From the NCBI GenBank assembly GCA_014190235.1, contig BJGC01000002.1:1-64000 (forward strand): 64,000 bases of DNA. The letters are read 5' to 3'. The notes under the pieces were generated by a model, which worked only from the letters and a program-made list of their open reading frames with translations, did not search any database and had not been told where the DNA came from. The stretch's first letter is position 1. Every line of letters starts with the position of its first letter. This document shows, one piece after another, positions 15,400 through 17,527 of the stretch. Position numbers and translations under genes: made by a program. The DNA comes from Actinomycetes bacterium (GTDB lineage Bacteria > Actinomycetota > Acidimicrobiia > Acidimicrobiales > Ilumatobacteraceae).

Positions 15400-16119
15400 C
15401 TACAGATGCCGGTCGAAAAGACCGATGCTTCGTAGTCTGCGTTCGAGGTGGGCCTCCATGAGTCCCATCGCAATATGGTTCACCTCTCGCACGGCTGGGG
15501 TCTCTTCAAGCGCTAGTGCTGCAGCGAGACCGCCTCTGTTGATTTGACGCAAGATATCTAACGCAGTTTGGGAGATCGCGATTCCGGACCGACACGAACG
15601 GCACAGGATTCCACCCTCTTGAATGTCGATCGCTACAAGATCAGATGAGACCCCACAACGAACACAATCTTCAAGTGTCGGGGCCACACCTTCGGACGCA
15701 AGCAGTTTCCAGTAGAAGGCACCAACGATGATTGGCGATGAGCCGTCATTGAGTGCGCGCAGAGCGCGCGACAGCATCGTGTAGATATGTGGCACTGGTT
15801 CGCGATCAGGCGTGAGCTTGTCGACTGCTTCAACCATTGACAGGCCTTGTTCAAGTTGTCTTAAATTCACTCTCATTGCAGTGTGCGTATCGATCAAATC
15901 AACCTGACGAACCGTGTCGAGATCGCGACCTCGATACAACTGCACATCGACATGACTCAGAGGTTCGAGACGCGCTCCAACGCGTGATGTGGTTTTGCGA
16001 ATTCCTTTGGCGACCGCTCTGATTTTGCCAGAGTTCTCCGACAACAAAACAATGATTCGATCAGCCTCTGCGAACTTATAGCTCCGCAGCACGACCGCCT
16101 TCTCGCGGTACAGACTCAC
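15400..16119 (-). CDS. recO: DNA repair protein RecO
   Basis: RecO anneals strands and loads RecA with RecR in gap repair. The 239-residue protein has the OB-fold N-terminus (YREKAVVLRSYKFAEADRII, KGIRKTTSRVGARLEPLS), a helical middle, and a zinc-finger CVRCG...CRSC near residues 147-171. Translation starts at GTG 16119, overlapping the stop of the upstream prenyltransferase-like gene (16116-16118), so the two are translationally coupled. Confidence 0.95.
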   Translation of the reverse strand: MSLYREKAVVLRSYKFAEADRIIVLLSENSGKIRAVAKGIRKTTSRVGARLEPLSHVDVQLYRGRDLDTVRQVDLIDTHTAMRVNLRQLEQGLSMVEAVDKLTPDREPVPHIYTMLSRALRALNDGSSPIIVGAFYWKLLASEGVAPTLEDCVRCGVSSDLVAIDIQEGGILCRSCRSGIAISQTALDILRQINRGGLAAALALEETPAVREVNHIAMGLMEAHLERRLRSIGLFDRHL

Positions 16120-16772
16120 GAATCAAGCCCACCAAAACGACGATGACGCCGATCAAAGTCATCAACTGCAAGTTCGAGATGAGATGCCGATAGGTCATCC
16201 CATTTCAAATCCAAAAAGACAAGTTCGCTGTATCCAAGTTCCCAAATCAGCGATGTCGGCAATTGATCAGGTGGTCCGAACACCACAACTAAATCAGGCT
16301 CTACATCAGCAGGTGACATGACATGTTGTGCCAACAGCGCTTCGTCAAGATTCTGGGCAGTCACATTGTTCATGCGCAGTGATTCCAATATTGCCGCAAA
16401 ACGAACTTGTCCGTTTGGAGACGGATCCACGATGATCGTGAGCACCGACGATTTCTGCCACACGCCCCTCATGAGGTGCCCTTCACCAACCAGCCGAAGT
16501 GGCACCGCATCAGAAATCACCTCAAACAAAGAGAGCCTCTCGGTAACGCTCAAGACCTCTCCTCCGTAAGGAAGCAACGTGATCCATTGTGCGCCCCCAA
16601 CGGAGGCACCTCGAACGATGTCATCAAGGCGGGTCTCCCAGTCCACTGATCCGAAATTGCGCCATTCCTGGGGGGTTCCGGCTGCCACCACAACATGCGA
16701 CAACTGTGGCGAGTCCCCAGACCTATTGTCGCTCGACGGCTTGATGGCTTTTTTGGCGGGACTCACCGTCAT
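16116..16772 (-). CDS. UppS-fold pseudoenzyme, NgBR/Nus1-like candidate accessory subunit
   Basis: The 218-residue protein aligns along its length with cis-prenyltransferases but lacks the catalytic parts. HVVVAAGTPQEWRNFG (26-41) stands where UppS has HVACIMDGNGRWA, so the catalytic Asp is gone. WITLLPYGGEV replaces the FSTENW strand, and PDLVVVFGPPD (159-169) replaces the RTSGESRISNF motif, losing both Arg. Retained are the Glu in GYSEL (180-184) and a C-terminal RRFGG (211-215), i.e. the RxG motif. The eukaryotic accessory subunit NgBR/Nus1 shows the same pattern, including an FGP-D stretch at the RTSG position. It diverges from the true uppS (68-base gap) and is coupled to recO by overlap. 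Inference: non-catalytic partner of UppS in a heteromeric undecaprenyl diphosphate synthase. The alternative is an inactive paralogue with an unrelated role. Confidence 0.75.
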   Translation of the reverse strand: MTVSPAKKAIKPSSDNRSGDSPQLSHVVVAAGTPQEWRNFGSVDWETRLDDIVRGASVGGAQWITLLPYGGEVLSVTERLSLFEVISDAVPLRLVGEGHLMRGVWQKSSVLTIIVDPSPNGQVRFAAILESLRMNNVTAQNLDEALLAQHVMSPADVEPDLVVVFGPPDQLPTSLIWELGYSELVFLDLKWDDLSASHLELAVDDFDRRHRRFGGLDS

Positions 16773-16840
16773 AGTCTCGCACTCAAATGTGGTGACGGTG
16801 TGACTACCTTGCGTAACCCGCTCAGTAGTGTGTCGTTGTT

Positions 16841-17527
16841 ATGACTTCGCCCCAGCCTCCCATTCATGTCGCATGCATCATGGACGGCAATGGTCGGTGG
16901 GCCAGACGACGTGGACTCCCCCGAACCGAGGGCCACACCGCTGGCGAAGAAGCACTAGCCGCCATTGTGCGTGCCGCTGCGCAGCGCAACATCGGTTGGC
17001 TCACAGTGTTTGGTTTTTCTACCGAAAATTGGGTTCGCCCTCGCACCGAAGTTCGTCACATCTTGTCGCTTCACAAAAAACTTTTTGGGCGCATCGCAGA
17101 ACTCAATAGCAACAACGCATCTATTCGCTGGATCGGTCGGCCCTTCGATGAGCCCGGTGCGCTGACACCACCATTTATCCAAAAGGCAATCAACAAAGCA
17201 ATCGCCGACACTGCAACTAATACTGGACTAGTACTCACGGTTGCCTTCGACTACGGAAGCAGAGCCGAACTGCTTCGCGCATCTCAACGCGTCATTGTTT
17301 CGGGTGGCGAAATCACGCCAGATCTTGTGTCAGCAAATATGTACGATCCAAGTATTCCACCAGTCGATGTCGTGGTGCGCACATCCGGAGAATCTCGCAT
17401 CTCTAACTTTTTGTTATGGCAAATTGCTGGTGCAAAGGTGTATTTCACGGAGCGAACATGGCCTGATTTCAACGCAGCAGAACTTGACGCAGCGATTGCT
17501 CTTGTCGAACCTAAAGTCTCGCAATGA
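16841..17527 (+). CDS. uppS: Undecaprenyl diphosphate synthase, catalytic subunit lacking the RxG tail
   Basis: The enzyme extends farnesyl diphosphate with isopentenyl diphosphate to make the C55 carrier for cell wall synthesis. The 228-residue protein has MDGNGRWA (catalytic Asp15), the EGH box (His32), FGFSTENW (57-64) and RTSGESRISNFLLW (180-193). Two things are odd. The usual AYSE motif reads AGAK (196-199), losing the Glu, and the protein ends 18 residues after WPDF with LVEPKVSQ, lacking the RRFG tail of homodimeric enzymes. The end is not a frameshift: the TGA overlaps the ATG of the helicase gene, and neighbouring frames do not encode the missing tail. The lost elements are present in the divergent neighbour at 16116-16772, suggesting a two-subunit enzyme. 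Confidence 0.93.
   Translation: MTSPQPPIHVACIMDGNGRWARRRGLPRTEGHTAGEEALAAIVRAAAQRNIGWLTVFGFSTENWVRPRTEVRHILSLHKKLFGRIAELNSNNASIRWIGRPFDEPGALTPPFIQKAINKAIADTATNTGLVLTVAFDYGSRAELLRASQRVIVSGGEITPDLVSANMYDPSIPPVDVVVRTSGESRISNFLLWQIAGAKVYFTERTWPDFNAAELDAAIALVEPKVSQ

Follow-up and report, generated by a model that had tools for sequence, protein, structure and literature searches.

Cis-prenyltransferases are described as homodimers in bacteria and plants and as heteromers in eukaryotes (fungi, metazoa, plants, animals) in the review PMC7839719; an archaeal heteromer is cited for Methanosarcina mazei (PMC8131916). In human DHDDS/NgBR and yeast Rer2/Nus1, the catalytic Asp and the residues that bind substrate are retained in the catalytic subunit, the other subunit shares the fold and is catalytically inactive, and human NgBR supplies the C-terminal RxG motif (PMC7573591, PMC6921004). 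The NgBR tail reaches the active site of DHDDS, and the rate of the complex exceeds that of DHDDS alone about 400-fold (PMC7573591), the deficit of DHDDS alone being put at about 400- to 500-fold across two papers (PMC7573591, PMC6921004). A long-chain product is ascribed to the eukaryotic heteromers. Here we describe two neighbouring genes, encoding the proteins P0001 and P0002, in a stretch of 64,000 nucleotides ("the window"; positions 1 to 64,000 of the forward strand of contig BJGC01000002.1, assembly GCA_014190235.1) from an actinomycete of the family Ilumatobacteraceae. They very probably encode two different subunits of one cis-prenyltransferase, which would have arisen by inverted duplication of uppS, the gene for the homodimeric enzyme UppS, and complementary loss of residues. 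No report of a bacterial heteromeric cis-prenyltransferase was found among the matches listed in the open-licence literature.

Other described systems resemble this locus in part. The M. mazei pair MM_0618/MM_1083 is likewise a prokaryotic two-gene enzyme and makes C45-50 products for a glycosyl carrier lipid (cited in PMC8131916); it is archaeal, unlike P0001/P0002, and is likened here by description and not by sequence. HexA/HexB and HepS/HepT are also bacterial prenyl diphosphate synthases with a catalytic and a second subunit (PMC7839719). They are trans-prenyltransferases, a different enzyme class from P0001/P0002. We know of no RxG exchange in them. The homodimeric UppS of E. coli, B. 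subtilis and S. pneumoniae share fold and family (PF01255) with our pair, and their conserved residues equal the sum of those of P0001 and P0002, but there one gene carries all residues, while here they are split between two.

An earlier, sequence-only reading of the window had placed the two genes as divergent open reading frames (ORFs), and both were confirmed at the following positions, 68 bp apart:

16841 to 17527, plus strand: P0001, putative catalytic subunit, a UppS-like cis-prenyltransferase without RxG tail, 228 amino acids (aa) (ORF, Pfam, alignment, AlphaFold2 model)
16877 to 16903, plus strand: IMDGNGRWA, which holds the catalytic Asp15 (E. coli D26), kept in 37/37 aligned relatives
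17378 to 17392, plus strand: RTSGE, P0001 residues 180-184 (alignment of catalytic proteins)
17423 to 17437, plus strand: IAGAK where homodimeric UppS have IAYxE, E. coli Y211 and E213 being lost (joint alignment)
16116 to 16772, minus strand: P0002, putative non-catalytic partner subunit with UppS fold, catalytic residues lost and RxG tail kept, 218 aa (ORF, Pfam, alignment, AlphaFold2 model)
16221 to 16244, minus strand: WELGYSEL of P0002, residues 177-184, with E. coli Y211 and E213 kept in 36/36 partners (alignment)
16128 to 16148, minus strand: C-terminal RHRRFGG of P0002, residues 209-215, with the RxG motif R212-F-G214 (alignment)

The motifs were also as that reading had described them. 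P0001 has Asp15 and RTSGE, reads IAGAK for the IAYSE of other UppS and ends in ...ELDAAIALVEPKVSQ, without RxG. P0002 lacks both MDGNGR and RTSGE, reads VVFGPPDQLP at the RTSG position, where the sequence-only reading puts an FGP-D stretch in NgBR, keeps WELGYSEL and ends in RHRRFGGLDS. Both proteins belong to PF01255 (gathering cut-off 27 bits), which P0001 matches over profile positions 1-209 of 219 with 212.8 bits and P0002 over 141-219 only, with 39.8 bits. For TIGR00055, the polyprenyl diphosphate synthase model of homodimeric bacterial UppS (NCBIfam equivalog cut-off 109.55 bits), P0001 lies above the cut-off with 192.9 bits and P0002 below it with 41.5.

The division of residues between the two proteins was analysed in a joint alignment of 36 partners (from 60 ORFs), 37 catalytic proteins (from 63), 28 UppS of the same order and E. 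coli UppS, whose numbering is used here. Repeat views, near copies and truncated frames had been left out; the alignment of the partners is surer at the C-terminus than at the N-terminus. Catalytic residues and an aligned C-terminal RxG tail were never found in one chain, neither in P0001/P0002 nor in their 37 and 36 aligned relatives. Fifteen positions are present in 37/37 catalytic proteins and 0/36 partners: D26, N28, R30, R39, H43, W75, R77, E81, R194, T195, G197, E198, S202, N203 and F204. D26 is replaced by G in all 36 partners. The mirror set of Y211, E213, R239, R241, R242, F243, G244 and G245 is complete in 36/36 partners and found, in this order, in 0, 3, 3, 0, 0, 0, 0 and 0 of the 37 catalytic proteins, which mostly have G (30/37) at the Y211 position. 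The UppS of the order have the first seven of this set in 28/28 cases (position 243 is F in 23, else Y). W31, D190 and W207 are common to all catalytic proteins and partners, and F216 and W221 to nearly all.

As in DHDDS/NgBR, the aligned catalytic proteins (37/37) thus have the Asp and RTSGE without F243/G244, no residue being present at either of these positions, and the partners (36/36) have RxG without the catalytic residues. All 36 partners, from 23 genera, end in RRFGG. Among the loci named in the partner alignment (best 80 of 168), RRFGG lies inside the last 30 residues of 79 partners; the 80th has RRFGA, which still holds RxG, so that all 80 keep the motif. None of the 75 catalytic proteins from these loci has RxG in its last 14 residues. 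Judged from these sequences, the two-gene pattern of tail and catalysis is not due to chance. It is consistent with one composite active site per pair, and the sequence-only reading, which had proposed such a site, is supported to this extent. Since Y211 and E213 travel with the tail, the pattern also suggests that both act across the dimer interface in UppS; neither a role of E213 in E. coli UppS nor an action of Y211/E213 across the interface was found in the literature searched.

The genome assembly comprises 2.02 Mb in 55 contigs and is 96.2% complete, about 4% being missing. A genome-wide profile search found PF01255 in exactly two places, P0001 and P0002, and no third. A second complete uppS, looked for as a result that would count against the composite site, was accordingly not found in the assembled genome. 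The genome has two PF00953 (MraY/WecA-type) genes. The substrate of such enzymes is undecaprenyl phosphate. From its sequence, the P0001/P0002 pair is the only detected candidate for the organism's undecaprenyl (C50-55 class) diphosphate synthase.

The sequence-only reading had called for a co-occurrence search, which was carried out in 221 genomes of the family, from 27 genera, with the PF01255 profile and a profile built from the partner alignment, the counts being combined from both. Both genes were present in 193/221 genomes, some in pieces. These include G323, where a contig end cuts the catalytic gene off after its first residues, and G431, G436 and G328, with weak catalytic matches. The catalytic gene or a fragment of it was alone in 7 genomes (G315, G357, G367, G400, G445, G452, G469), the partner alone in 4 (G031, G300, G320, G325), a single full-length UppS in 4 (G408, G238, G485, G399), and no PF01255 match in 13; the partner was thus present in 197/221. 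Among the PF01255 matches listed (down to an E-value of about 1e-62), only the four full-length UppS reach profile position 219 and the others end at 208-217, some of the longest of these reading through a stop. All 79 genomes with a completeness of at least 90% and a contamination of at most 5% match each of the two profiles. The exceptions are G238 and G408 (full-length UppS) and G031 (partner at a contig end), which leaves 76 with both genes. The pair was seen in 24 of the 27 genera, the others being g157 (G408), g13 and g150, the last with a single, incomplete genome in which nothing matched.

A relative clearly keeping one gene in intact surroundings, looked for as another refuting result, was not found in the 221 genomes. 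In 6 of the 7 catalytic-only genomes the contig breaks off beside the gene on the side where the partner would lie, and G469 has a piece of the partner at that end; the seventh, G400, has a 55-residue fragment and no partner match in the 1.5 kb beside it. In 3 of the 4 partner-only genomes the distance from the partner to a contig end is zero or at most about 170 bp, and in the fourth, G300, the contig stops 1.2 kb upstream. The catalytic gene was also found in 75/80 named loci, always on the opposite strand, and in the remaining 5 no more than 1.4 kb of contig is left upstream of the partner. The named loci are partly the same records as the 221 genomes, and the two sets are not independent. 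Several of the public metagenome-assembled genome records with the partner gene (L173, L179, L187, L188, L195, L201, L205) bear the titles Bifidobacterium breve, Ferrithrix thermotolerans or Acidimicrobium ferrooxidans, which seem doubtful beside the remaining titles. The pair need not be adjacent: in genus g149 the partner and the catalytic gene stand about 2.3 kb apart in some genomes (L274:1815-3902 in G321; L270 in G317), and in G321 a gene for a protein of 695 aa, probably a membrane protein, lies in this gap.

The surroundings of the pair are as follows:

15400 to 16119, minus strand: recO, overlapping the 3' end of the partner gene by 4 bp; in the order's other families it comes after the single uppS (ORF, Pfam, synteny)
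16773 to 16840, no strand: 68-bp divergent intergenic region between the head-to-head genes of P0001 and P0002
17524 to 19440, plus strand: gene for a DinG-type helicase, overlapping the 3' end of the catalytic gene by 4 bp; in 17/28 loci of the order it faces the single uppS head-to-head (ORF, Pfam, synteny)

A promoter scan of the intergenic region gave no sigma-70-like match. In the order, 28/28 UppS loci (27 loci of other families and that of G408) have recO no more than about 310 bp behind uppS and on its strand, and dinG stands before uppS, head-to-head, in 17 of these. In the split genomes it is the partner that precedes recO, in the position of the single uppS, and the catalytic gene lies inverted with dinG behind it; 50/50 distinct locus pairs are head-to-head. 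G408, which belongs to the same family, keeps a single gene in that slot, with a full-length UppS ending NRRFGGIES.... In the genus g13 genomes G238, G485 and G486, dinG adjoins recO with no UppS-like match between them. A full-length UppS is encoded at another place in the genomes of G238 and G485; G486, 81% complete, has no PF01255 match. In the tree, the UppS of G238, G485 and G399 form one clade (100/99) outside the UppS of the order. Those of G238 (L235, G238:C45) and G399 (L236, G399:C4) lie beside a gene that looks from its sequence like a trans-prenyl diphosphate synthase gene and that follows the UppS gene in G238, and not at the dinG/recO site; UppS and this gene are possibly a transferred unit. 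G399 shares UppS type and neighbour with G238, is 72% complete and has no recO that we found; it is possibly misbinned.

The catalytic proteins form one clade (100/99 and 100/100). A firm root for this clade was sought and not obtained; without E. coli, an origin with the UppS of the order was not rejected (p-AU, from the approximately unbiased test, 0.43), nor was it thereby shown. Among the other sets, the UppS of the order have the highest mean score with both hidden Markov models (HMMs), 99.9 bits for the partner and 238.7 bits for the catalytic protein, and the two HMMs score each other low (32.4 and 20.9 bits). In a profile comparison with the PDB, the partner profile has 82 bits to E. 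coli UppS versus 27 to NgBR (E 2.5e-5), and P0001 has an E-value of 6e-48 to bacterial UppS versus 2e-26 to DHDDS. Both subunits are thus closer to bacterial UppS than to DHDDS or NgBR; unlike those, the pair is bacterial, and P0001, at 228 aa, lacks the C-terminal extension of the DHDDS type. The synteny points to a local duplication of uppS as the source of the pair, and these PDB profile and HMM scores favour, without proving, an origin separate from DHDDS/NgBR, the tree covering bacterial sequences. The residue-by-residue complementary loss, the departure of AYxE with the tail, the place of the partner in the ancestral uppS slot and the favoured separate origin go beyond the sequence-only reading.

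Outside the family, a sample of 396 Actinomycetota genomes drawn evenly (11 of this family, 385 outside) was searched with the partner profile. The score was at least 195 bits in the 11 family genomes versus at most 109 bits in the other 385, in which no partner was found; judged by the aligned part, the matches up to 109 bits appear to be C-termini of ordinary UppS. Other genomes with two PF01255 genes were considered as further split pairs and rejected. In other Acidimicrobiia, 29/29 matches reach the profile end at 219 (15 genomes, 14 with two). The C-termini inspected carry the tail, with K or T for the RxG arginine in the three UppS of family f29 (L096, L099, L102), and many other Acidimicrobiia (L106-L118, from several families) have a second full-length cis-prenyltransferase paralog ending RRFG or RRYG. 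Genomes of families f13 and f4 with at least two matches have full-length paralogs in G205, G260, G254 and G169; the second copy of G248 (L080) ends at profile position 217 and reads VTLGG, and the matches of G099 are two fragments. In f88 and f91, which have weak partner-profile matches, PF01255 is matched from 1 to 219, and in four genomes the match is split into two parts of a single frame; G725 has no match.

AlphaFold2 models predict the cis-prenyltransferase fold for both proteins. The model of P0001 has a predicted local distance difference test score (pLDDT) of 87 and aligns in VIA-align to S. pneumoniae UppS with Z 25.7 over 213 residues at 2.6 Å; that of P0002 has a pLDDT of 89 and aligns to E. 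coli UppS with Z 13.1 over 175 residues at 3.5 Å. NgBR is not among the 50 VIA-align matches listed for the partner, which is no argument against a likeness to NgBR. Residues 214-218 of P0002 have a pLDDT below 50 when the chain is folded alone, as would be expected of a tail that folds onto another chain and equally of any loose end. For close pairs, the median ratio of nonsynonymous to synonymous substitution rates (dN/dS) is about 0.05 for both genes, which indicates strong purifying selection; 8 of 55 pairs (from 11 loci) passed the dS filter, 6 of these with finite dS for the catalytic gene. Distant pairs gave 0.25-0.94 among 14 listed of 343 and were rejected as a measure of selection because they are saturated. 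Mean column identity is 35% for the partner versus 67% for the catalytic protein.

The reading that we prefer, two different subunits of one enzyme, is based on complementary conservation, co-occurrence, synteny, joint absence, single-chain predicted folds and purifying selection; from these we infer a physical complex, a tail acting in trans, an activity that depends on the partner, and the product. The ancestor would have had a homodimeric uppS product in which the C-terminal RxG tail of each subunit passed into the active site of the other. Where the C-termini of homodimeric enzymes are visible, the arginine of RxG is in contact with Mg via water, and in some of these enzymes the main chain of the RxG glycine contacts the acceptor phosphate (PMC8131916). 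In the ancestor of most of the family, uppS may have been duplicated as an inverted neighbour. The copy beside dinG would then have kept the substrate- and Mg-binding residues and lost the tail and the AYxE motif, and the copy in the old slot before recO would have lost the active-site residues and kept fold, AYxE and tail. Such complementary losses of the two copies would make the working unit a heterodimer or a dimer of heterodimers, with one active site per pair, located in the catalytic subunit and completed by the RRFGG of the partner.

Several observations weigh against this reading. Structure prediction covered single chains, and the complex is predicted from the comparisons above. Eight further positions conserved in 37/37 catalytic proteins are shared by some partners (R200 in 16/36, S71 in 9, F70 in 7, G29 in 5, E73 in 3, and G27, N74 and P222 in 1 each). 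The catalytic protein L122 (G071) ends ...SRQGS, and the letters RQG in this short unaligned end make a short substitute tail possible there. The partner frame of G333, one of the 76 good genomes with both genes, is broken by a stop and a run of N; the partner gene of G407 (L275:650-1255) has one in-frame stop (TAG) in a frame that is otherwise intact, as is its RRFGG end, and the stop may be real or a sequencing error. The partner gene of G298 is in pieces, the two genes are not adjacent in G321 and G317, and in G409 they lie on different contigs. The attachment of the catalytic clade is unsure, its stem being long and long branches meeting when E. coli is the outgroup. Finally, loss of RxG does not force heteromery, as M. 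mazei MM_0014 lacks RxG and is an active homodimer (PMC8131916), and human DHDDS alone is weakly active as a homodimer (PMC6921004).

These last two enzymes lend some weight to the idea that the catalytic protein is an RxG-less homodimer like MM_0014 and that the partner is a separate protein with a modulating or different role. MM_0014, in which the C-terminus of one subunit covers the cavity of the other (PMC8131916), ends TLGG, whereas P0001 stops ten profile positions before the end of the family. An RxG-less homodimer would also leave unexplained why the partners keep exactly the tail and AYxE with the catalytic residues gone, and why both genes are jointly absent in genus g13; we regard it as unlikely. 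That the partner is a decaying uppS pseudogene without function might be suspected from its faster evolution, the broken frame in G407 and the high, saturated dN/dS of distant pairs. It is hard to square with the close-pair median dN/dS of 0.05, the invariant end in 36 partners from 23 genera, the confidently predicted fold and the presence of the partner in 197/221 genomes, and we give it next to no credence.

The shared division of labour and the match of the partner profile to NgBR could also be read as signs that the pair was acquired by transfer from the heteromeric DHDDS/NgBR lineage of eukaryotes or archaea. Given that both subunits are far closer to bacterial UppS in the comparisons above, that both HMMs have their own order's UppS on top on average among the sets tested (archaeal heteromeric subunits not being in the comparison), and that the partner occupies the ancestral uppS slot, such a transfer is very improbable. 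Much the same holds for a real heteromer whose product is a different polyprenyl diphosphate, longer or shorter, with some other route supplying the cell-wall carrier: product length is not readable from sequence and about 4% of the genome is missing, but there is no other PF01255 gene in the genome, and G238 and G485, without the pair, carry an ordinary full-length UppS. Compared with the two-subunit reading itself, we hold with somewhat less confidence, as likely from the sequence comparisons, the fuller account of a bacteria-only, independent origin of an obligate heteromer through inverted uppS duplication and complementary loss of cis and trans residues, nearly family-wide and reversed at least once by an ordinary uppS, with Y211/E213 acting at the interface in UppS generally.

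If the two-subunit reading is true, a bacterial heteromer carries out an essential step of cell-wall synthesis, and the NgBR/DHDDS design arose more than once. The locus would also be a clean natural case of the transition from a homodimer to an obligate heterodimer through complementary loss after duplication, a transition of a kind found likely under neutral evolution in simulations (PMC11066126). The single-gene state is still present in the family, and one genus has apparently reversed the split. From the complementary residue sets, testable predictions follow as to the UppS residues that work across the interface of the dimer. Where the described state in bacteria is two copies of one UppS, this family appears to use two different proteins.

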